From assembly GCF_004135975.1 (NCBI RefSeq), contig NZ_CP026538.1, forward strand, positions 2,542,001 through 2,606,000: a stretch of DNA of 64,000 bases. The letters run 5' to 3'. Source of the stretch: Solidesulfovibrio carbinolicus (GTDB taxonomy: Bacteria; Desulfobacterota; Desulfovibrionia; Desulfovibrionales; Desulfovibrionaceae). Each line of letters opens with the position of its first letter. Position 1 is the first letter of the stretch. Below, piece by piece: positions 27,333 to 42,736 of this stretch. The position numbers and the translations under genes are program-made. A model generated the notes under the pieces. The model was not told where the DNA came from. It saw only the letters and a program-made list of their open reading frames with translations, and made no database searches.

Positions 27333-28013
27333 TCACGACAAATCGTCGTCAAGATCAATAATCCCCAAGCGGGCGGCGTAGCGCACGAGTTCGGCCAGAT
27401 TGGCCAGCCCCAGCTTGCCGCAGATGTTGGCCCGGTGGTTTTCCACGGTCTTTTTGGAAATAAACAGCTCGGCCGCGATGGCGGCCACGGCCCGGCCTTC
27501 GGCTAAAAGCCGCAGGATCTGCTGTTCCCGGCGGGTGAGGTTGTCATAGGCAGGATCGCGGGGACCAGTCTTGCGTGCGGCGTATTCGTCCAGGCGCAGA
27601 AGTACTTGCGGCGTGATGGCCGCGTCGAGGTAGCGCTCGCCGCGAAGCACGGCCTCAATGGCCGCGACCAGGCTCGTGGCGGCGGAATCCTTGACCACAT
27701 AGCCCACGGCCCCGGCCCGGAAACAGGCGGCCACCAGATCCAGGCGGGCGTGCATGGTGACCATCACCACCCGGCATTCCGGGGCCAGTCCGGCCACGCG
27801 CCCGGCCACGTCCACCCCGCTGCCGCCGGCCAGGCCCACGTCCAGGAGCAGCACGTCCGGGGCGAGATCGCGGGCCAGGGCAACCGCGCCGGCTGCGTCG
27901 GACGCCTCGCCGACCACCTCGAACCGGGGGTCGGCGGCCAAAATGGCGGCCAACCCCTGGCGCATCAGGCCGTGGTCGTCGGCAATGGCGATGCGCGTCC
28001 GCTTCGTGCTCAT
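27333..28013 (-). CDS. NarL/FixJ-type response regulator
   Basis: 226-aa DNA-binding regulator. Receiver with ADDH acidic patch, phospho-acceptor Asp58 (LLLDVGL) and K in VVKDSA, then a LuxR-type helix-turn-helix (about 158-210, LTRREQQILRLLAEG ... KKTVENHRANI). The ATG overlaps the stop of the kinase gene (ATGA) and has GAGGAA upstream, so the pair is translationally coupled. Target genes are unknown; the divergent 29376 operon is a candidate. Confidence 0.95.
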   Translation of the reverse strand: MSTKRTRIAIADDHGLMRQGLAAILAADPRFEVVGEASDAAGAVALARDLAPDVLLLDVGLAGGSGVDVAGRVAGLAPECRVVMVTMHARLDLVAACFRAGAVGYVVKDSAATSLVAAIEAVLRGERYLDAAITPQVLLRLDEYAARKTGPRDPAYDNLTRREQQILRLLAEGRAVAAIAAELFISKKTVENHRANICGKLGLANLAELVRYAARLGIIDLDDDLS

Positions 28014-29119
28014 GAGCTTTCCTCGGCCAAGGGAATCTCGGCCTTGATGCGGGTGCCGTGGCCCGGCCGGGAGCGGATGGTCAACCGACCGCCGAGCAGG
28101 CGCACCCGCTCGCCCATGCTCCAAAGGCCCATGCGCTTTTCGCCCAGCGCCTCGGGCAACCGGGCCTCGGGATCAAAGCCCTGGCCGTCGTCGGCGACCC
28201 GCAGCAGCAGCAGCGGGTGGGAGGCGACCAGACGGGCCACGATTCGCGTTCCCCGTCCATGACGGCAGGCGTTGGCCAGGGCTTCCTGGAGCACCCGGTA
28301 GATGGCCAGGGAGGTGTCGAAGCCCACGGTCAGGCGCTCCAGGCCGTCAGCGGAAAAATCCACGGCAAGTCCCGTGCGGGCGGCGGTGTCGCGGCACAGC
28401 GCGGCGGCGGCCTCGGCCAGCCCCAGCCGGTCCAGGACCGGCGGCAGCAGGTCGCCGGCCAGGTTGCGCAGGCTGGCGATGGCCGCGCCCAACCGGGCCG
28501 AGCTGTCGCGCAGGACATCCCCGGAGGCGGCGTCGGGCTGCGGCTCCTTGGCGGCAAGCAGCCGCTCCAGCCCCATGCGGGCCAGGGACAGATGCTGGCC
28601 CACGTCGTCGTGGAGTTCCCGGGCGATGCGCTGGCGCTCGGTTTCCTGAGCTTTGATGAGCTCCCGGGAGAGCCGGCGCAGCCGTTCCTCGGCCCGGCGC
28701 GAGGCGATGATGCGGCCGAGATGTTCGGCCAGGGCGTCAAGGAGATGGCGTTCCTCGCGCAAAAAGGGCCCCTCATCGGCCGGCGGGCGCTTGTCCAGAT
28801 AGCCGACCTCGATGCGCCCCACGGTCTCGCCGCCGATAACGATGGCGCTTTCCTGCCGGGCCGCCGGACGCCGCCAGTTGGGCGTGGCAAAAGTCTGGCC
28901 GCCAAGGCTTAGGCGCACGCAAGCCGTCTCGGGATACTGCCAAGCCCGGGCGGCCACGAAACACGCCCCGGCCAGGATGCCGGAAAGGGCCAGTTCCTGG
29001 CGCTGGGACAGGCGGGTGATCTCGTAGAGGCAGTCGAGTTCCTTGACCCGTTCCCGCAGGGCGGCCAAGGTCTTGGCGTGTTCGGCGGCGTCAGGGGGAG
29101 ACGTGGCGTTGGCGTGCAT
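28010..29119 (-). CDS. GAF-domain NarX/DegS-type sensor histidine kinase
   Basis: 369-aa soluble kinase. A GAF-like sensor (about 25-140) precedes a HisKA_3 dimerisation domain with phospho-acceptor His170 in ARELHDDVGQHLSLA, and an HATPase domain with N box LQEALANACRHG and GLWSMGERV. No membrane helices, so it senses a cytoplasmic signal. The cognate regulator overlaps its 3' end. The ribosome binding site is weak; MHANATS is the most likely start. Confidence 0.92.
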   Translation of the reverse strand: MHANATSPPDAAEHAKTLAALRERVKELDCLYEITRLSQRQELALSGILAGACFVAARAWQYPETACVRLSLGGQTFATPNWRRPAARQESAIVIGGETVGRIEVGYLDKRPPADEGPFLREERHLLDALAEHLGRIIASRRAEERLRRLSRELIKAQETERQRIARELHDDVGQHLSLARMGLERLLAAKEPQPDAASGDVLRDSSARLGAAIASLRNLAGDLLPPVLDRLGLAEAAAALCRDTAARTGLAVDFSADGLERLTVGFDTSLAIYRVLQEALANACRHGRGTRIVARLVASHPLLLLRVADDGQGFDPEARLPEALGEKRMGLWSMGERVRLLGGRLTIRSRPGHGTRIKAEIPLAEESS

Positions 29120-29247
29120 GGCTATTTCTGATGAGCGATGTGGCGAACTTGTCTGGCAGGACCTGTCGCGGGCAAGTGCACCCTGCCCGGCATAGCCCTT
29201 TCCCTCGGCCTTGTCAGCCCAGCCCCCGCCCTCTCGGGAGCCTCTCC

Positions 29248-29278
29248 CGGTTTTTCGGGATGTTTTCCCAAAAAACCG
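29248..29278. promoter_or_regulatory. Imperfect inverted repeat upstream of the 29376 gene
   Basis: CGGTTTTTCGGGA and TCCCAAAAAACCG pair with one mismatch in 13 around a 5-nt loop. It lies in the divergent gap between the sensor kinase and the 29376 gene, with a second inverted repeat at 29296-29317. It could be an operator pair or a leader hairpin. Confidence 0.5.
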
Positions 29279-29375: not shown

Positions 29376-29960
29376 ATGGCGTATCCCGCCCTGACAAACG
29401 ACGCGGCGCTCTCGCCGCGTCCGTGCGCCCCATTGCCCGAAATGGAGTCCGACAAGCCCCTTGACCAACATCGGGAGCGCACCTGCGCTCCAAGGCGCGC
29501 CAACGCTGCGCCGGGGCTGTCCGTGACCCGGCTTGGCCCTGGCCGCTGGCGCATTTCGGCCCGTTTGCCCGAGGCCGGGCAGGAGGATCTCGACATCTAC
29601 CTGGCTCCGTCCGAGGGCAGCGCCGTACGTCTGCTGGCCCCAGACGACGACGTGTGCCGCGTGAGCGTGGAGGGAACGCTGGGTGAGGCCGGAGCGGCCA
29701 ATCTCGGCGACTGTCTGCTGGAAGCCCTGGAACGCGGCCCGGCGCGCCTGGACGTGGTCATCGGCCCCACGGTGGCCGAAGCCTCTCTTGGCGTCGCGGC
29801 CGTGCTGGAAAGCTTCGGCCGGGTCACGGCCCGACTCGAAGGCCGGCCGGAAATCGCCGTCAACGGGCCGGGACAGGGTTGCGCGGCCATGCGCCAGGCC
29901 TTTGACCGGGGCGCGGCCAAGGGTCGCGCCAGCCTCGGGGCGCAAGGAGGACAGCCATGA
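29376..29960 (+). CDS. Protein of unknown function (194 aa)
   Basis: 194-aa protein with an ideal ribosome binding site (AAGGAGG, 6 nt before ATG). The first 45 residues look disordered. The middle (about 95-155) alternates strand and helix (VCRVSVEGTLG, CLLEALERG, LDVVIGP) in a way that weakly recalls STAS domains, but no family is claimed. It is divergent from the NarL-type pair, and the next small gene overlaps its stop. Confidence 0.72.
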   Translation: MAYPALTNDAALSPRPCAPLPEMESDKPLDQHRERTCAPRRANAAPGLSVTRLGPGRWRISARLPEAGQEDLDIYLAPSEGSAVRLLAPDDDVCRVSVEGTLGEAGAANLGDCLLEALERGPARLDVVIGPTVAEASLGVAAVLESFGRVTARLEGRPEIAVNGPGQGCAAMRQAFDRGAAKGRASLGAQGGQP

Positions 29961-34958: not shown

Positions 34959-37307
34959 ATGGCGGCCATGGCGGAGGTCAGGCGTTGCCGCCATGTGGCG
35001 GCCGGGCAGGTCCAGGGGGTGGGCTTTCGCCCCTTTGTCTACCGTCTGGCCCAGGAACTGGGGCTCTCGGGCTGGGTGCAAAACACTCCAGAAGGCGTGG
35101 TCATCGAGACAGAAGGCCCGGCGGCGGCGGTGGCGGCTTTCGGACGCCGCCTGCCGGCCGAGCTGCCGCCCCTGGCCCGGCTGCTGGCCTTTTCGGCGAC
35201 CCCTGCCACGCCCACCGGCGAGGCCGGCTTCCGTATCCTTGCCAGCGCCCCGGGCAGCGGCCACGACGTGCTCATAAGCCCCGACGTCGCCACCTGCCCC
35301 GATTGCCTGGCCGACATGGCCGACCCCGGCAACCGTCGCCACCGCTATCCCTTCACCAACTGCACCAACTGCGGCCCCCGTTACACCATCACCCGGCGCG
35401 TGCCCTACGACCGGGAAACCACCTCCATGGCCTGCTTTCCCCTGTGCCCGGACTGCACCGTCGAGTACGCCCACCCGGGCGACCGGCGCTTCCACGCCCA
35501 GCCCAACGCCTGCCCGATCTGCGGCCCGTCCCTGTGGCTGGCCGACGGGACAGGCGTGGTCCTTGAACGCGCAACGGCCGCCGTCGCCGAGCTGGCCGCC
35601 CGGCTGGCCGCCGGCCAGATTGCGGCGGTCAAGGGCCTGGGCGGCTTCCATCTGGTTTGCGACGCCGCCAACGTTGACGCCGTGGCCGAGTTGCGCCGAC
35701 GCAAAGGCCGGCCGAGCAAGGCCCTGGCCGTCATGGTCCCGGACCTGGAAACCGCCGCCCTTCTCGGCGAGGTCGGCCCGACCGCCGCCGAACTCCTTGG
35801 CGGCACGGCCCGGCCCATCTGCCTGCTGCCGGCCCGAGCCGGCAGCGCGCTGGCCCCGAACGTCGCCCCGGACGTGGCCGAAATCGGCGTCATGCTCCCC
35901 TACACGCCGCTCCATCATATTCTGCTGGCCGATTTCGCCGCCGTTGTCGGCTCCGACCGACCGGCCGCCCTGGTCATGACCTCGGGCAACGCCGGGGGCG
36001 ATCCCATTTGCCTGGGCAACCGCGAGGCCCTTGCCCGCCTTGCCCCCCTGGCCGACATCTGGCTGCTCCACAACCGCGATATCCTCATTCGCACCGACGA
36101 TTCCGTGGTCCGCCCCCTGGAAGCGGCCGAGGCCGAGGCGGCCGGCGCGCCGACCCTGTTTTTGCGCCGGGCCAGGGGCTATGTCCCTTCGCCCATCCGG
36201 CTTTCCCGCGGCGGCCCGGAGGTGGTAGGCCTTGGCCCCATGCTCAAGGCCACGGTCTGCCTGACCAAGGGCGACCAGGCCTTTGTCAGCCAGCACATCG
36301 GCGATCTGGAAAATCTGGCCGCCCTGCGGTTTTACGAGGAAACCCTGGAGCATCTTCTCGGTGTGCTCGGTGTGACGCCCAGGCTGTGCGTGGCCGATCT
36401 CCACCCTGACTATCCGAGCACGGCCCTGGCCCTGGAACAGGGCCGCTGGCCGATCCTTCGGCTGCAGCACCACGTGGCCCACATCCACGCCGTGCTGGCC
36501 GAGCATCAATGGGACGAACCAGTCCTTGGTCTGGCCCTGGACGGCGTGGGCCTGGGCGAGGACGGCACGCTGTGGGGCGGCGAATGCCTGCTCGTCGATC
36601 CAACGAGCCTGACCCACCAGCGCCTGGGCCACTTCGCGCCCATGGCCCTGCCCGGTGGCGACGCGGCCGTGCGCCAGCCCTGGCGCATTGCCCAGGCATG
36701 CCTGCACGCTCTGGGGGAAACCGCCGAAGACGGCCTGATCCGGCCCTGGATGGCGGACCATGGCCCGGCTTCGCGCCTGGTCGGGCAGATGCTGGCCAAA
36801 AACCTCAACTGTCCAATGACCACCAGCTGCGGCCGGCTCTTTGACGCCGTGGCCGCTGTATCCGGCCTGTGCCTGGAAACGACCTATGAGGGTCAGGCGG
36901 CGATCCTGCTGGAGCGCGCCCAGGACATGGCCGAGAACAGGCCCTACCATTGCCCGCTCCTGGCCGACCGGACGCCGGCCGTCCTCGACACGCTCACCCT
37001 TTTTGCCCAGGCCGCGACCGACGCGGCCCAAGGCGTGGCGGCCGGAGGCATCGCCCGGCGTTTTCACCTGGGACTTGTGGCCGGGCTGACGCGGCTGGCG
37101 ACGGCCATGGCCCGGGAGACGGGCATTCGCGCCGTGGCCCTGGGCGGCGGCGTCATGCAGAACCGAACCCTGGCCTTGCGTCTTCCCGAGGCGCTTCGGG
37201 ACGTCGGTCTGCAACCTCTGGTGCATCGACGTATGCCGGCCAATGACGGTTGCGTCAGTCTGGGCCAAGCGGCCTTTGGCTTAAGGCAGTTGCGGGCTAA
37301 CAATTAG
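34959..37307 (+). CDS. hypF: Hydrogenase maturation carbamoyltransferase HypF
   Basis: 782-aa enzyme that makes the thiocarbamate on HypE from carbamoyl phosphate, source of the CN ligands of [NiFe]-hydrogenases. Domains in order: acylphosphatase (GVGFRPFVYRLA, 20-31), two zinc fingers (Cys113/116/135/138 and Cys163/166/185/188), YrdC-like domain (about 200-380) and Kae1-like carbamoyltransferase domain (LQHHVAHIHAV, GGGVMQNR). Full length. No other hyp or hydrogenase genes are in view. It follows the DUF362 gene by 3 nt. Confidence 0.97.
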   Translation: MAAMAEVRRCRHVAAGQVQGVGFRPFVYRLAQELGLSGWVQNTPEGVVIETEGPAAAVAAFGRRLPAELPPLARLLAFSATPATPTGEAGFRILASAPGSGHDVLISPDVATCPDCLADMADPGNRRHRYPFTNCTNCGPRYTITRRVPYDRETTSMACFPLCPDCTVEYAHPGDRRFHAQPNACPICGPSLWLADGTGVVLERATAAVAELAARLAAGQIAAVKGLGGFHLVCDAANVDAVAELRRRKGRPSKALAVMVPDLETAALLGEVGPTAAELLGGTARPICLLPARAGSALAPNVAPDVAEIGVMLPYTPLHHILLADFAAVVGSDRPAALVMTSGNAGGDPICLGNREALARLAPLADIWLLHNRDILIRTDDSVVRPLEAAEAEAAGAPTLFLRRARGYVPSPIRLSRGGPEVVGLGPMLKATVCLTKGDQAFVSQHIGDLENLAALRFYEETLEHLLGVLGVTPRLCVADLHPDYPSTALALEQGRWPILRLQHHVAHIHAVLAEHQWDEPVLGLALDGVGLGEDGTLWGGECLLVDPTSLTHQRLGHFAPMALPGGDAAVRQPWRIAQACLHALGETAEDGLIRPWMADHGPASRLVGQMLAKNLNCPMTTSCGRLFDAVAAVSGLCLETTYEGQAAILLERAQDMAENRPYHCPLLADRTPAVLDTLTLFAQAATDAAQGVAAGGIARRFHLGLVAGLTRLATAMARETGIRAVALGGGVMQNRTLALRLPEALRDVGLQPLVHRRMPANDGCVSLGQAAFGLRQLRANN

Positions 37308-37380
37308 CAAAATAAATAATTTTACATCCTTTCATCAGATTAAATTATAGATCATTTTGGTATAAATAATTGACAACAAG

Positions 37381-37506
37381 AGTCTTGCCGGGTAGGCACA
37401 GCCGCGTGCCTGAATGGCCGAGATTCCTCTTACCTCCATTCAGGGGGTTGTCCCGTCAAGACTGCAGCCGGGGTATTGCCGCGAGCCCGCAAGACGCGCT
37501 GACTGC
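37381..37506. ncRNA. Candidate structured RNA
   Basis: AGTCTTG (37381-37387) pairs perfectly with CAAGACT (37457-37463), enclosing two adjacent stems: AGGCAC-AGCCGC-GTGCCT (37394-37411) and TGAATGG/CCATTCA (37411-37442, 18-nt loop). A third small stem GGG/CCC (37443-37454) lies within. A further domain is closed by GCAG (37464) and CTGC (37503-37506). A TTGACA box at 37370 could be part of a promoter for plus-strand transcription. No known RNA family (6S, SRP, RNase P, tmRNA or riboswitch) is recognised. Confidence 0.4.
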
Positions 37507-37821
37507 CCAAAAAGGTTAAAAAAAATATAAAGATAGAAGGTGCAGTATACTCTTGTCATGACTGACGGGCAACAGCCAGGGAAACAGCGTCACCACAGGC
37601 CACACTCTCAAAAATATACAACAGCGAATAACGTCAGTCAGTATTCAGTACGATTCTGCTACGTTGCCGCCAAGTCCTTGACAGCCTCTTGCAATAAGCC
37701 TATTTTTTTAAAAAACACCTGCGCATTATGAAAAGCAAATAGCATATTACATTAACCTCTGTCAAAATAGTTCGCATTGCATACAAACTTTGAAACAACA
37801 TAAGAGTATTACCGTTTCTAT

Positions 37822-37834
37822 CGAACTGTTTTCG
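37822..37834. promoter_or_regulatory. CGAA-N5-TTCG palindrome upstream of first CI-like gene
   Basis: Short dyad CGAA-CTGTT-TTCG, about 120 nt before the start codon at 37952, in an AT-rich promoter-like stretch. A candidate operator for one of the three repressors; its pattern recurs as TTCGAA at 37874. Confidence 0.3.
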
Positions 37835-37862
37835 GTTTTAAACTTTACAAAAACACTTTAAG

Positions 37863-37886
37863 GCAAGATCAGCGTTCGAATCTTGC
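37863..37886. promoter_or_regulatory. Perfect 7-bp inverted repeat upstream of first CI-like gene
   Basis: GCAAGAT-CAGCGTTCGA-ATCTTGC, 65 nt upstream of the ATG. Either an operator or a leader hairpin. Its loop resembles a tRNA T-loop (GTTCGAA), but no tRNA can be folded around it. Confidence 0.45.
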
Positions 37887-37951
37887 AATTTGGGTATCCC
37901 CGTGCAGTTCATAAAGGGTGCCTCTTTTTACTCTATCGCAATGGAGGCGAG

Positions 37952-38656
37952 ATGGATAACGAGAAAACGCTTCAGGACATGATAAATCGCTTTGACGAGG
38001 CCTTTGATCGCATTAAGAAAGCGACAGGCATGCGCACTCAGGTGGAAATCGCCAAGATGCTGGACATCCGCCAATCCAGCATTTCCGATGCGAAAAGACG
38101 TCAATCCATTCCAGACAGCTGGTTGATAAAGCTGTACCAGATATACAATCTCAATCCAAACTGGATATTGGACGGCGAAATGCCGCAGTTCCTGGGTGAA
38201 CAGCGTGGCGGGGCTTTCCCCGTCAAGGAACCTGCCGAAGCCTATGGCCGCAAAGCCAAGCATCATCAGATGCCGGTCTATTCCATGGCCCCGGACAACA
38301 CGGATCAACCCGGCGTCTGGCAAGAACGACCCGTGGAATTCTTAAGTGTCCCTGAACAGCTGCATCGCCAGGGCTTGCTGGTTGTCCGCATGGATGAAAA
38401 CGACATGGAACCTGTCATTCAGCGCGGCGCGTATGTCGGTATCGATAAGGACAAAAAAACCGTGCGCTCCGGCGCGCTTTACGCCCTGGACATGCCCGTT
38501 GAAGGCTTGATCATCAAGAAAGTGCTTCATGACGCAGAAAATGCCCGCCTTGTGTTGCGTTCCGAAAACCCCAAATTCACCGACCAGATGTTGCCGGCTG
38601 ATAACGCCGCCGAACGTATCGTTGGTCGGGTCATCTGGGTAATGCAGGCCGTCTGA
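37952..38656 (+). CDS. Phage CI-type repressor with S24 domain, catalytic Ser replaced by Asp
   Basis: 234-aa regulator. The N-terminal phage CI-repressor helix-turn-helix (about 12-80) reads TQVEIAKMLDIRQSSISDAK and SIPDSWLIKLYQ. The C-terminal LexA/CI-like S24 fold spans 108-234. At the usual G-D-S-M-x-P serine there is Asp151 (ENDMEP); Lys189/190 is kept (LIIKK). Self-cleavage by the Ser-Lys mechanism is therefore not expected, and no Ala-Gly cleavage site is visible. Base composition is clearly lower in GC than its neighbours, which suggests transfer. GGAGG precedes the ATG. First of three tandem paralogues. Confidence 0.88.
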   Translation: MDNEKTLQDMINRFDEAFDRIKKATGMRTQVEIAKMLDIRQSSISDAKRRQSIPDSWLIKLYQIYNLNPNWILDGEMPQFLGEQRGGAFPVKEPAEAYGRKAKHHQMPVYSMAPDNTDQPGVWQERPVEFLSVPEQLHRQGLLVVRMDENDMEPVIQRGAYVGIDKDKKTVRSGALYALDMPVEGLIIKKVLHDAENARLVLRSENPKFTDQMLPADNAAERIVGRVIWVMQAV

Positions 38657-39070
38657 CCCTCCCTTGTAAAAGGCTGCGAGAACGGGTGACAACAGCTTTG
38701 TCGCCAAGTCGTTTGCTGAGGACATGCAGATGTCTCTGAATGGAACAAGACGCCAGTCCGATCTCCATACGAAGCCAAGCCAAGCAGTTCATCGTGGCTT
38801 GCCGAGAGGCCGCATGCCAGGGTAGCGTTGGTGCCGCAGCAGCGATGTAAAATCGCTCAAACGCGGCCCGGCACGCTTGCCGACTGTTACAAGAAAAGGC
38901 GCACGCCGCTTCAGGCGTAGCGCCTTTTTTACATCCCCGCTTTTCCAGTGCGCCGCAAGCCCCTGCGACCAGCCATTGACGGCCGCCCCACGGACATGTA
39001 AATTTCCCGGCAACTTATGAACTACTTTTTATTATAGATTAATGTTTACGCCAACCCTTTAGGAGGTTGC
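38657..39070. other. Long noncoding spacer between CI-like genes 1 and 2
   Basis: 414 nt. It holds a hairpin AGCGAT-GTAAA-ATCGCT (38841-38857) and a strong terminator at 38894-38930, then an AT-rich promoter-like stretch (TTATTATAGATTAAT, 39029-39043) just ahead of gene 2. A 34-codon frame at 38724 is possible but unsupported. The terminator lies about 240 nt beyond the gene 1 stop, so the spacer is a long 3' UTR or carries a small RNA. Confidence 0.6.
38894..38930 (+). terminator. Rho-independent terminator after CI-like gene 1
   Basis: AAAAGGCGC-ACGCC-loop-GGCGT-A-GCGCC followed by six T: a long stem with one bulge and a classic U tract. It separates gene 1 from gene 2, so the genes are independent transcription units. 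Confidence 0.9.
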
Positions 39071-39742
39071 GTGAAGCCGGACAATTTCGAGGACGCCTAC
39101 GCCAGAATTCAGGCCGCCACCAAGGCCAAAACACAAACGGAGATTGCCGCTATTTTGGGCATCAAGCAGTCCAGCATCTCCGACGCCAAAAAAAAGAACA
39201 CCATTCCGGACGGCTGGCTGGTCACCCTTTACAGGATGTTCTTTCTCGAACCGGACTGGATACTGTACGGGCAGCTCCCGGCCGTGCGCCGGGAAAGCGG
39301 CGGGGCCGCCGATTGCGTCAGGGAAACCGCCGTGGCCTATGTTGCGCCCCCAAGCCGCGTCACGGTCTACGCCATGAGTCCCACCGATACCCAGACCCAG
39401 GCCTGGATTCGCGAACCTCTGGAAACCCTTCCCTTGTTTGAAGCCTTGCGCCGGCCAAATCTTCTCGTGGTGCGCATGGACAACGCCAGCATGGAGCCGA
39501 CTGTGCGCCGCGGCGCCTACATCGGCATCGACTGCGACGATTTGCGTCTGCGCAGCGGGGAAATCTACGCCCTGGACATCCCGGGCGAAGGCCTGGTCAT
39601 CAAACGCGTCAACCGCGATCTGGAAAACCAGCGCCTGGAGCTTAGCGCGGACAACCCGCTCCACAAGTCCTTAAGCCTCCCCCTGGACAACCCCGGCCTG
39701 ACCTCCATCGGCAAGGCCGCCTGGGTCATTCAGGAACTCTAG
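39071..39742 (+). CDS. Phage CI-type repressor with intact S24 Ser-Lys dyad
   Basis: 223-aa paralogue of the 37952 protein. CI-type helix-turn-helix at about 8-70 (TQTEIAAILGIKQSSISDAK, TIPDGWLVTLYRM) and S24-like domain 97-223 with Ser140 (NASMEP) and Lys178 (LVIKRV). This is the only one of the three that keeps the catalytic pair, although no Ala-Gly cleavage site is seen in the linker. GTG start with an ideal AGGAGG 4 nt upstream. Higher GC than gene 1. Confidence 0.88.
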   Translation: MKPDNFEDAYARIQAATKAKTQTEIAAILGIKQSSISDAKKKNTIPDGWLVTLYRMFFLEPDWILYGQLPAVRRESGGAADCVRETAVAYVAPPSRVTVYAMSPTDTQTQAWIREPLETLPLFEALRRPNLLVVRMDNASMEPTVRRGAYIGIDCDDLRLRSGEIYALDIPGEGLVIKRVNRDLENQRLELSADNPLHKSLSLPLDNPGLTSIGKAAWVIQEL

Positions 39743-39759
39743 CCCCTCCAACACCCCTT

Positions 39760-39782
39760 GTGCGCGCCTATGCCGCGCGCAC
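39760..39782 (+). terminator. Hairpin after CI-like gene 2
   Basis: GTGCGCGC-CTATGCC-GCGCGCAC, perfect 8-bp arms, 17 nt past the stop, followed by TTTC. Likely a terminator, though the T run is short. Confidence 0.55.
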
Positions 39783-39861
39783 TTTCGGGCGACCAATTTC
39801 AATTATTTGCCAATATATTAATTTACAAACAGGTATAGACGTCGTATCCCTCAATGATCCG

Positions 39862-39880
39862 TGCCGGGTTCGTACCGGCA
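39862..39880. promoter_or_regulatory. Inverted repeat upstream of third CI-like gene
   Basis: TGCCGG-GTTCGTA-CCGGCA, 6-bp arms, 23 nt upstream of the ATG at 39904. Its GTTCG loop resembles that of the repeat at 37863-37886. Possible operator or leader hairpin. Confidence 0.4.
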
Positions 39881-39903
39881 AGAGTCATGCAGGAAAAAGC
39901 CCA

Positions 39904-40341
39904 ATGCCTAAGTCGTTGCCAGACCGCCTATCGCCCCGGACCAATCTCTCCCGCCACATTGCGGTCTACGCCATGAACAGCCTGGACCCCAAGACCGGGG
40001 CCTGGACGCCAACCGCCATCGCTTCCATAGAAATTGCTGAGACGCTCTTCCGGCCGCACCTGCTGGTCGTGCAAATGGAGGACGACGGCATGGAACCCGT
40101 GATCCGGCGACAGGCCTATGTCGGCCTGGACCGCGACGACGTCACGGCGCGAAGCGGCGAGATTTACGCCTTGGATATTTCTGGGGAAGGTTTGGTCATC
40201 AAACGGCTGGAACCGGATATTGCCGGAAAGCGGCTGCGGCTTGTTTCCGCGTCGTCCCGCCATGCCGAGCGGTTTTTGGCCCAGGGCGGCCCCGACTACC
40301 TGGTCATCGGCCGGGTCGTCTGGGTCATCCAGGACCTTTAG
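39904..40341 (+). CDS. S24-domain-only paralogue lacking DNA-binding domain
   Basis: 145-aa protein that aligns with the C-terminal halves of the two upstream repressors (IAVYAMNSLDPKTGAW, FRPHLLVVQMEDDGMEP, SGEIYALDISGEGLVIKR) but has no helix-turn-helix. The serine position is Gly62 (DDGMEP); Lys100 is retained. AGGA lies 9 nt before the ATG. Since S24 folds dimerise, it could bind and poison the two full repressors, acting as an antirepressor, or it may simply be decaying. It ends 20 nt before the convergent rhomboid gene. Confidence 0.8.
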   Translation: MPKSLPDRLSPRTNLSRHIAVYAMNSLDPKTGAWTPTAIASIEIAETLFRPHLLVVQMEDDGMEPVIRRQAYVGLDRDDVTARSGEIYALDISGEGLVIKRLEPDIAGKRLRLVSASSRHAERFLAQGGPDYLVIGRVVWVIQDL

Positions 40342-40361
40342 CGGCCCGACTACCCGCCCGG

Positions 40362-41084
40362 CTACTCCCGATCATAGCGCTTGGCCGAGGGATCGAAGCA
40401 GAACTGGCAGCCCGGCGGCAAAAGCCACCGCACCAGAGCCAGTCCGGCGGCAAAGCCGCCCACATGGGCCCAGAAGGCCACCGCCGCCGCCTGCCCTTCA
40501 ACCGCCGTGCCGGCCAACCCCGACAAGAGCTGCACGAGAAACCATACGCCCAGAAACACCACCGCCGGCAGGTCCACGATCCAGGGTATGACGATGATGG
40601 GAATAAGCGTCGTCACACGCGCCTTGGGAAACAGCCGGAAATACCCGCCCATGACCCCGGCGATGGCCCCGGACGCGCCAATGACCGGCACGGGCGCGCT
40701 CCAGTTGAAGGCCACGTGCACCGCCGCCGCCGCCACGCCGCACAGGATATAGAAGAGCAGAAAACGCAGCGATCCCAGCGCTTCCTCCACGTTGTCGGCA
40801 AATATCCACAGCACCCACATGTTGAGCAGGTAATGCAGCCACCCTCCGTGCAGAAACATGTAGGTGAGAAACGACAGCCAGCCGCCCTCGGGATAGCCCA
40901 CGTGGGCGGCGTAGCTCGGATGGGTGAAGCGGGCCGGGACCACACCGTGGATGTGCACGAATTCAAACAGCACGCGATCAGCCAGGAGCTGCTGGTAGAG
41001 AAACACCACCGTACACAGGCCAATGAGCGTCCAGGTGACCAGGGGCGGCTTGGTGCTCGGCACGTTGTCTCGAAGGGGAATCAC
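40362..41084 (-). CDS. Rhomboid family intramembrane serine protease
   Basis: 240-aa polytopic membrane protein with six or seven helices. The catalytic Ser138 lies in IGASGAIAG and His207 in WAHVGG; HGGWLHYLLNMW supplies the conserved His/Asn. The C-terminal tail ends with CQFCFDPSAKRYDRE, a possible CxxC metal site. GTG start overlaps the stop of the upstream fused gene (GTGA), with GAGGA ahead. Substrates unknown. Confidence 0.93.
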   Translation of the reverse strand: MIPLRDNVPSTKPPLVTWTLIGLCTVVFLYQQLLADRVLFEFVHIHGVVPARFTHPSYAAHVGYPEGGWLSFLTYMFLHGGWLHYLLNMWVLWIFADNVEEALGSLRFLLFYILCGVAAAAVHVAFNWSAPVPVIGASGAIAGVMGGYFRLFPKARVTTLIPIIVIPWIVDLPAVVFLGVWFLVQLLSGLAGTAVEGQAAAVAFWAHVGGFAAGLALVRWLLPPGCQFCFDPSAKRYDRE

Positions 41085-42736
41085 GGCGCGTCCTCGTCCT
41101 CCGCCCGGGACGGAGCGTAGCCGGCGGCCACGAGCGTAGCCAGCCGGTTCCGGGCGTCCTGGCGGCGCAGGCCCGCCAATCCGACCAAAAGCCTCCGGGC
41201 GGCCCCGGCTAAGTCCTCGGGCGTGCCGGCGTTGTCCACCACGAACCGGCACTTGGCCAGCTTGCGATCCTGCGGCCACTGCCAGCCATCCATGCGGGCC
41301 ACAAGCTCCTCGGACCAGCCCCGCTTCTCGGCCAGCCGGGCCAGACGCACGGCCGGGTCGCAGCGCACCCCAACGACCAAGTCCACGACCTCGCCCGGCA
41401 GCCAGCCGGCTTCAAACAACAGCGGCACTTCGGCGAAGACCGCCCGGGCGGCGGCATGGGCGGCCAAAAAGCCCACCAGCTCGCCCTTGACCAGGGGATG
41501 CACCAGATCGCACACCTCGCGCCGGAAACGATCGCTGGCTTCCATGCGCGACAGCAGCCAGGCCTTGTCCACGGCCCCGTCGGCCGCCTGGGCCTCGGGG
41601 CCGAAGCGCCGGGCCAGCATGTCCGCGCCGTGGCCGCCGGGAGCGTACAGGGCGGTCACGGCTGCGTCGGCGGAAAAGGTCGGATGGCCGGCCTCGGCGA
41701 AATGGGCCAAAAGCGACGACTTGCCGCAGCCCGGCATCCCGACCAGCCCCACCCGCTGGCAGCGCCGGCCGAGCATGAGCAGGAGTCGCCAGAAATCGGC
41801 CGGCGGCGGCTGGCAAAAAGACAATTCCTCGTCCGTGCCCGGATGGCTGAAGGACAGCTTCCAGGCGTGGAGCATCTGGCGTTTGGCCAGCCGGGCCATG
41901 GCCCCGCCGCGCCGGGTCCAGTCCGAGTGCTGGCGCGCGCCGTACACCGCGTCGCCGACAATGGGATGGCCCATGGCGGCCAGATGGACGCGGATCTGAT
42001 GGGTGCGGCCGGTGGCGATGGCCACTTCAAGCAGGCTGGCCGTACCGTCGGGCGCGGTCCAGGTCAGTTTCCAGATACTCTTGGCCTCGCGCCCGCCCTT
42101 GGCCACCACGGCCATTTTGGTGGGATGCTTGGGATCGCGGCCGATGGGCAATTCGATGACCCCGTCGGACCGCTCCGGACGGCCATGGACCAGGGCCAGA
42201 TAGGTCTTGGCCACGCGCCGCTCGGCGAAATCAGCGGCCAGGGCCAACCGGGCCGATTCGGTCAAGGCGACCAGGAGCAAACCGGAGGTGTCCTTGTCCA
42301 GGCGGTGGACGATGCCCGGCCGGTCGCCGGCCATGGCCCGCATGTCCGGGAAATGGTGCAGCAGCCGGTTGACCAGGGTGCCTTCCGGCTGGCTCGGGGC
42401 CGGATGGATGGTCAGCCCGGCCGGTTTGTTGAGCACCAGCACGTCCCCGTCCAGATAGAGCAACTTGAGGTCGCCGTCCTCGGCCTTGGCTTCGCTTGGC
42501 GTCTCGGGCAGGCGCAGGGTCAACGCCTCGCCGCCCCGCAGCTTGAGGCCCGGTTTGCGGCAGATTTCCCCATCGACCAGGGCCAGCCCGGCCTCGATGG
42601 CGGCCCGGACCTTGGCCCGGGAAATGTCTTCGACCGCCAGCCTGGCGCTCCAGAAAGCGTCCAAACGGGTTCCGGCGGCATCCACAACGGCCGTATAGGC
42701 CCCTTCCTCGATCAGTATGGCTTCGTTTTCGGTCAT
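41081..42736 (-). CDS. Fused RluD-type pseudouridine synthase and dephospho-CoA kinase
   Basis: 551-aa two-enzyme fusion. Residues 1-310 are an RluA/RluD-type pseudouridine synthase: S4-like start, then HRLDKDTSG with catalytic Asp147, and ATGRTHQIRVHL. Residues 325-551 are CoaE, the last step of CoA synthesis: P-loop GMPGCGKS (333-340), SADAAV, VPLLFEAGW and VGVRCDPAVRL. Both active sites look intact. AGGGA lies upstream of the ATG and the rhomboid gene overlaps its stop. Confidence 0.9.
   Translation of the reverse strand: MTENEAILIEEGAYTAVVDAAGTRLDAFWSARLAVEDISRAKVRAAIEAGLALVDGEICRKPGLKLRGGEALTLRLPETPSEAKAEDGDLKLLYLDGDVLVLNKPAGLTIHPAPSQPEGTLVNRLLHHFPDMRAMAGDRPGIVHRLDKDTSGLLLVALTESARLALAADFAERRVAKTYLALVHGRPERSDGVIELPIGRDPKHPTKMAVVAKGGREAKSIWKLTWTAPDGTASLLEVAIATGRTHQIRVHLAAMGHPIVGDAVYGARQHSDWTRRGGAMARLAKRQMLHAWKLSFSHPGTDEELSFCQPPPADFWRLLLMLGRRCQRVGLVGMPGCGKSSLLAHFAEAGHPTFSADAAVTALYAPGGHGADMLARRFGPEAQAADGAVDKAWLLSRMEASDRFRREVCDLVHPLVKGELVGFLAAHAAARAVFAEVPLLFEAGWLPGEVVDLVVGVRCDPAVRLARLAEKRGWSEELVARMDGWQWPQDRKLAKCRFVVDNAGTPEDLAGAARRLLVGLAGLRRQDARNRLATLVAAGYAPSRAEDEDAP

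Follow-up and report, generated by a model that had tools for sequence, protein, structure and literature searches.

What becomes of a phage-type repressor when it turns into a regulator of the cell? The question is raised by three genes, here g1, g2 and g3, in Solidesulfovibrio carbinolicus (assembly GCF_004135975.1), which were found in a stretch of 64,000 nucleotides (contig NZ_CP026538.1, positions 2,542,001 to 2,606,000 of the forward strand; hereafter the window) of a genome of 4.69 Mb. The three genes are co-directional, lie between hypF and a gene for a rhomboid-family protein, and resemble CI-type regulators, which combine a helix-turn-helix (HTH) DNA-binding domain with an S24 domain. 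An initial annotation, made from the letters of the window, had read them as a switch composed of a non-cleavable repressor, a cleavable one and an S24-only antirepressor. Our analysis gives good support to a family of domesticated regulators that has probably lost cleavage and includes HTH-less members, and makes a switch between cleavable and non-cleavable repressors unlikely.

Loss of the self-cleavage signature

Translation, alignment and Pfam searches agree that three S24 paralogues stand in a row, as initially annotated: identity to g1 is 47% for g2 and 39% for g3, and Peptidase_S24 (cut-off 23.3 bits) matches g1, g2 and g3 with 46.2, 44.8 and 44.0 bits. The HTH domain Phage_CI_repr (PF07022, cut-off 22) was found in g1 (27.5 bits) and g2 (23.4 bits). 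Pfam did not find it in g3, and tblastn (E-value up to 1) detected no HTH remnant in the 161 bp upstream of g3 or upstream of six other g3 copies, in agreement with the description of the third gene as devoid of an HTH. The AlphaFold models of g1 (pLDDT 71, pTM 0.58) and g3 (pLDDT 82) match LexA, lambda CI, 186 CI and UmuD' in a fold search; querying solved structures by sequence with g2 and g3 gave no S24 hit at E-values up to 1.

The residues initially reported for the catalytic positions were recovered in the alignment. The serine column reads Asp in g1 (D151), Ser in g2 and Gly in g3 (G62), and all three proteins retain the lysine; the Ser-Lys dyad of a self-cleaving S24 repressor is present in g2 only. 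According to two papers (PMC8565304, PMC13148647), S24 self-cleavage requires an Ala-Gly (Cys-Gly) bond besides this dyad. The scissile Ala-Gly is absent at the aligned place from all three proteins (0/3), which read MAPDN (g1), MSPTD (g2) and MNSLD (g3). Thus the sole carrier of the dyad, g2, offers no canonical bond for cleavage.

None of the 44 array members counted over 14 genomes of the genus (14 g1, 14 g2, 7 g3 and 9 copies of a fourth paralogue, g4) has the full set of Ser, Lys and Ala-Gly. At the serine position, the g1 orthologues have Asp in 14/14 genomes, and those of g2 have Ser in eight, Gly in five and Ala in one. The seven g3 copies carry Gly (4) or Ser (3) there and Lys (4), Ile (2) or Arg (1) at the lysine position, all three Ser-bearing copies being without Lys. 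All nine g4 copies have Ala or Cys for Ser and Arg for Lys.

Outside the genus, 57 loci from 28 other genera were compared, each represented by its one best regulator, hand-picked among the best-scoring places. Ser is present in 28 of them, Lys in 23 and [AC]G in 29; all eight combinations of presence and absence occur, and the three features come together in a single locus (1/57). The reading helix, RQSSISDAKRR, is identical in all 57. As 15 of the 43 other genera, including the large groups g18 and g33, are unsampled in this set, statements about the family hold for its sampled part only. By the same rule the full set is present in each of three distinct full-length relatives from prophages and in the two further CI/S24 genes found in the window's genome, so that the full-length controls for the Ala-Gly rule were positive in 5/5 cases; a fourth viral locus (L206), which is cut off, has Ser and Lys only. 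Judged from these residues, g1 and g2 have probably lost autoproteolysis and would not cleave themselves in vivo. The initial annotation had noticed neither the missing Ala-Gly site nor g4, nor the relatives in other genera of the family.

Conservation and relationships of the array

Relatives of P0002 (E-value up to 1e-10) are present in 234 of the 288 genomes of the family, representing 43 of its 44 genera, a count in which weaker matches are not distinguished as the same gene or a prophage repressor. Within the genus, hypF lies upstream of g1 in 14/14 genomes, one contig carrying only part of it, and the rhomboid gene lies downstream of the array in 14/14; g1 and g2 are adjacent in 13, and on different contigs in the remaining one (G258). 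Copies of g3 were found in seven genomes and of g4 in nine (E-value up to 1e-5), three genomes having both and one neither. The exact trio, whose conservation was one of the checks initially proposed, is present in four of the 14 genomes, the close relatives of the window; the other ten are arranged otherwise: g3 with g4 in three, g4 without g3 in six and g1-g2 alone in one. The array thus has conserved chromosomal neighbours, in line with its initial reading as a set outside a prophage; it does not have the strain-specific placement among phage genes of a prophage immunity region, phage genes not having been separately searched for across the window. The array is chromosomal and vertically inherited.

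In other genera the 57 regulators (loci of 4.6 to 17 kb) mostly lie near two Band_7 genes (hflK/hflC-like) or panB: hflC is present at 32 loci, panB at 31, either of them at 47, hypF at 6 and none at 8. Four loci (L101, L130, L131 and L103) have the gene order hypF-regulator-regulator-panB and form a bridge between the hypF and the hflC/panB settings.

In the S24 tree g1, g2 and g4 each form one clade; g3 groups with g2 (97/96), not as a single clade. The approximately unbiased (AU) test rejected neither one origin of g3 (p 0.31) nor the joining of g4 with an S24-only gene of a second genus, g17 (p 0.35), both groups having been named after the tree was seen. A single origin of g3 is favoured because the window shares a conserved block of 41-53 bp upstream of this gene with G258, G265 and G266. 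The S24-only gene of g17 adjoins the rhomboid gene in both genomes examined (L098, L099) of three. In these two loci the serine position of the neighbouring full-length regulator is occupied by His. The fourth paralogue, g4, consists of an S24 domain with a degenerate HTH reading helix and lies 3' of g2 or g3 (L119, L121-L125, L127-L129).

In G258 (L119, L120) g1 and hypF are on one contig and g2-g3-g4 with the rhomboid gene on another, where g2 is 5.8 kb from the contig end with no hypF or g1 between; the array seems to be split in this species. In G266 the hypF match (L121, 4656-6943) falls into two pieces in different frames at residue 722/723, and this hypF may be frameshifted or misassembled.

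Selection on the paralogues

Over 18 pairs within clades, omega, the ratio of nonsynonymous to synonymous rates, ranges from 0.04 to 0.15 for g1, where some synonymous divergences (dS) are saturated (up to 2.6), and from 0.04 to 0.17 for g2; both genes are strongly constrained. For g4 it is 0.21-0.50 (10 pairs). The coding parts alone were compared with neutral simulations (GC 0.65) in 12 chosen pairs, six of the 21 possible for g3 and six of the 36 for g4. Their omega of 0.18-0.45 is below all 300 simulations in every pair, with pair 000-264 near the neutral limit (0.41 against a simulated minimum of 0.42). Stop codons arose in 255 to 297 of the 300 neutral copies, and none of the 16 real g3 and g4 copies has one within the matched stretch; the simulation ignores indels and keeps the composition fixed, and copies decayed past the search cut-off would escape it. 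Thus g3 and g4 evolve faster than g1 and g2, yet below the neutral expectation in these 12 pairs, and the HTH-less genes are therefore constrained, though less than their full-length paralogues.

Control regions

The features of the locus are listed in Table 1. Separate terminators and start signals had been ascribed to the first two genes. A promoter-like site before g2 and a hairpin 3' of g1 are indeed there, but terminator-like sites are no more frequent in the region than in shuffled sequence (5 against a mean of 4.2). The AT-richness noted for the region was found in the g1 leader (GC 0.42), for which long alignments are confined to the three closest relatives. The composition of g1, described as foreign-looking, counts for little as evidence: in the genus, where the gene is fixed, its GC is 0.52-0.62 over 14 genomes. 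Rfam gave no match within 37250-40400 at E-values up to 1.

Table 1. Features of the regulator array and its flanks (window coordinates).
Feature	Position	Strand	Remarks
hypF	34959..37307	+	Conserved upstream neighbour; name backed by Pfam
g1 leader, AT-rich	37308..37951	+	Promoter-like TTGACA-17-TATTTT at 37678-37706; one TATAGAT at 37346
g1, CI-type HTH + S24 regulator	37952..38653	+	Asp at serine position; no Ala-Gly
Hairpin followed by T tract 3' of g1, terminator-like	38913..38925	+	Regional count not above shuffles
g2 promoter-like site TTGACG-17-TAAATT	38976..39004	+	TTGACG 5' of g2 kept in 14/14 genomes of the genus
TATAGAT motif, g2 leader	39033..39039	+	Motif search
g2, CI-type HTH + S24 regulator	39071..39739	+	Ser-Lys dyad present; no Ala-Gly site
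TATAGAC motif, g3 leader	39834..39840	+	Surrounding block aligns to L116-L119, L121, L122
g3, S24-only paralogue, 145 aa	39904..40338	+	Gly at serine position; no HTH; g2 branch of the tree
Rhomboid-family protein	40362..41087	-	Conserved downstream neighbour; name backed by Pfam

In the group g38, the stretch from TTGACA to the regulator start contains GGGA-N5-TCCC palindromes. Of 12 such loci read with one mismatch allowed, nine have two sites 22 bp apart, two have one site and one (L109) has none. The exact tandem occurs once per genome, always at the regulator promoter, in four of the six g38 genomes searched, and a role as an autoregulatory operator is possible. At most of the loci L147-L157 a similar tandem follows directly after TTGACA at the regulator's own promoter. 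Within the window's genus, the g2 leader of G267 has a single site of this type with one mismatch. The exact tandem is located elsewhere in seven of the 14 genomes, in five of them beside a homologue of the open reading frame (ORF) 29376-29960. In the window, GGGA-N5-TCCC-N8-GGGA-N5-TCCC (29236-29269), the only exact tandem of this genome, sits between a histidine kinase gene (28010-29119, minus strand) and this ORF, for which Pfam gave no match at E 1e-4; the tandem adjoins the homologue also in G264, G265, G260 and G268.

A second candidate motif, TATAGA, was first spotted in g2 leaders (13/14). TATAGAY stands once before each of g1, g2 and g3 on the same strand (Table 1). It occurs four times in the 64 kb against 0.77 expected, a number reached by two of 100 shuffles, and its rate in shuffled leaders is 0.048 for g1 and 0.008 for g3. 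However, the six-mers common to the three leaders are at chance level (4 against 3.3), the motif has no genome-wide enrichment (174 against 213 in the control) and it is missing from g1 leaders beyond the four closest genomes. Neither the g38 palindromes nor TATAGAY amounts to a firm operator, and we retain the latter as a lead only.

Proposed role of the array and alternatives

We consider it very probable that g1 and g2 belong to a domesticated, non-cleaving family of CI-type regulators. The ancestor would have been a phage-type self-cleaving repressor, as the intact prophage relatives suggest. In the bacterial family of the window (presumably the Desulfovibrionaceae) it would have become an inherited regulator, with a strictly conserved reading helix and an eroded autoprotease (Ser, Lys, Ala-Gly), and in this genus it would have been duplicated next to hypF. 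Today both g1 and g2 most likely act as DNA-binding dimers that do not cleave themselves and prefer similar sequences; as they have no site to cut, they should be stable, with their amount or their partners governing activity.

Like g4, g3 has shed its HTH and retained the S24 fold, and selection maintains it. S24 domains dimerise, in LexA mostly via the C-terminal strand; in this strand g3 keeps G136 and W140, with Q143 just after. As the simplest role under selection, g3 is a candidate dimer partner of g1 or g2, a proposal in which our confidence falls somewhat short of even. It would most likely act through S24-S24 contact, forming heterodimers that miss one HTH and weaken DNA binding by g1 or g2; both this pairing and the putative antirepressor effect are suggested by paralogy. 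The entire reading, a domesticated CI-type array with cleavage lost and HTH-less S24 partners, has in our estimate about an even chance of being correct. More tentative is the wider idea that a phage repressor has turned into a family regulator whose HTH-less paralogues, in at least one genus, are genome-encoded, microProtein-like dominant-negative partners, control having passed from cleavage to paralogue dosage; we regard it as rather doubtful. In the open-access literature searched, no paper describing the array or such an HTH-less S24 paralogue was recognised.

Several observations weigh against this interpretation. The [AC]G rule inspects one aligned stretch, and another cleavage bond in g2 is possible. 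In one genome of the genus (G260) no copy of g3 or g4 passes the search cut-off, and the HTH-less partner is therefore dispensable there. Omega of g3 reaches 0.29-0.67 (9 pairs) when columns before the start codon are included. Only 14 of the 145 g3 columns hold one residue (at least 85% in each of the four paralogue groups), G136, W140 and Q143 among them, so that a shared S24 dimer interface is no more than plausible. Finally, the search revealed no operator common to the family and to g1 and g2. The exact g38 site is absent from the g1 and g2 leaders of the window's genus (300 nt each), so that a family-wide operator is unsupported, contrary to a simple reading of the invariant helix.

Alternatively, g3 and g4 could be S24-fold adaptors or sensors that serve a different target, in the way UmuD' serves polymerase V, and no longer pair with g1 and g2. 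We consider this unlikely: g3 adjoins g2 in all seven genomes that bear it, the downstream gene encodes a rhomboid protein and not UmuC, and the strand residues G136 and W140 are retained. That g3 is a functionless duplicate in slow decay is quite improbable. Its omega of 0.21-0.45 is far above that of g1 and g2, and it is present in only half of the genomes; but all seven copies found are open, the DNA upstream is conserved, omega lies under every neutral simulation in the six g3 pairs tried, and an S24-only gene adjoins the rhomboid gene also in g17, in both genomes examined. The trio thus withstands one of the refuting conditions set initially, decay of the third gene to a remnant.

Less probable still is an SOS-linked form of the switch first proposed, with g2 as a RecA-cleavable repressor, g1 as a non-cleavable one and g3 as an antirepressor. 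Ser and Lys are retained in g2, and separate promoter-like sites permit differential dosage. However, g2 lacks Ala-Gly and its serine is replaced by Gly or Ala in 6/14 orthologues, g1 keeps Asp irrespective of the g2 residue, and the relatives in other genera display every residue combination. What survives of the initial interpretation is a real, selected regulator set with an HTH-less member that could pair, but not the cleavage-based switch. Finally, a decayed prophage with the trio as its immunity region is hardly credible, for despite HTH and S24 domains of the phage-repressor type its hypF-rhomboid location is constant across the genus, hypF adjoins a regulator also in the genus groups g17, g23 and g3 (a genus label here; L098, L099, L101, L130, L131, L103), the top-ranked phage record is only 28.9% identical over 94%, and viral-contig relatives are 26-34% identical to g1 and 32-39% to g3.

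Comparison with known systems

If the array is a domesticated regulator set, as we propose, the signature intact in prophages, eroded in the family and accompanied by HTH-less genes here would make a natural series in which a phage switch becomes the cell's regulator, and would indicate what stays once self-cleavage goes. The series also points to a pitfall of annotation, the genes being labelled 'Peptidase S24' although the majority are probably not peptidases. With a reading helix that is invariant in all 57 genomes sampled from 28 genera, the regulator is a ready experimental subject.

LexA, lambda CI, Francisella FddR and the Bacteroidetes LexA-like proteins share the HTH + S24 architecture and the fold with the window genes. 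Unlike self-cleaving S24 repressors, the latter are without the Ala-Gly bond, and g1 and g3 also without the serine. UmuD and UmuD' are S24 proteins without an HTH, as is g3, but g3 has no adjacent umuC and no cleavage site, and carries Gly for Ser.

Inactivation of repressors by antirepressor proteins instead of cleavage is described (PMC3121763) for coliphage 186 CI and Tum and for the Gifsy repressors with GfoA and GftA. The C-terminal domain of 186 CI matches both AlphaFold models (g1 and g3), whereas the Gifsy repressors, small proteins of about 150 aa, do not have the CI structure. In contrast to Tum and the Gifsy proteins, the candidate antirepressor is here the repressor's own paralogue, and the genes are chromosomal. 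The Caulobacter XRE paralogues RtrA/B and CdxA/B are likewise phage-related cell regulators that have radiated and form heteromers, and the available parts of their description (PMC10688885) ascribe no S24 domain to them and describe no HTH-less member; the paralogues of the window stand in tandem.

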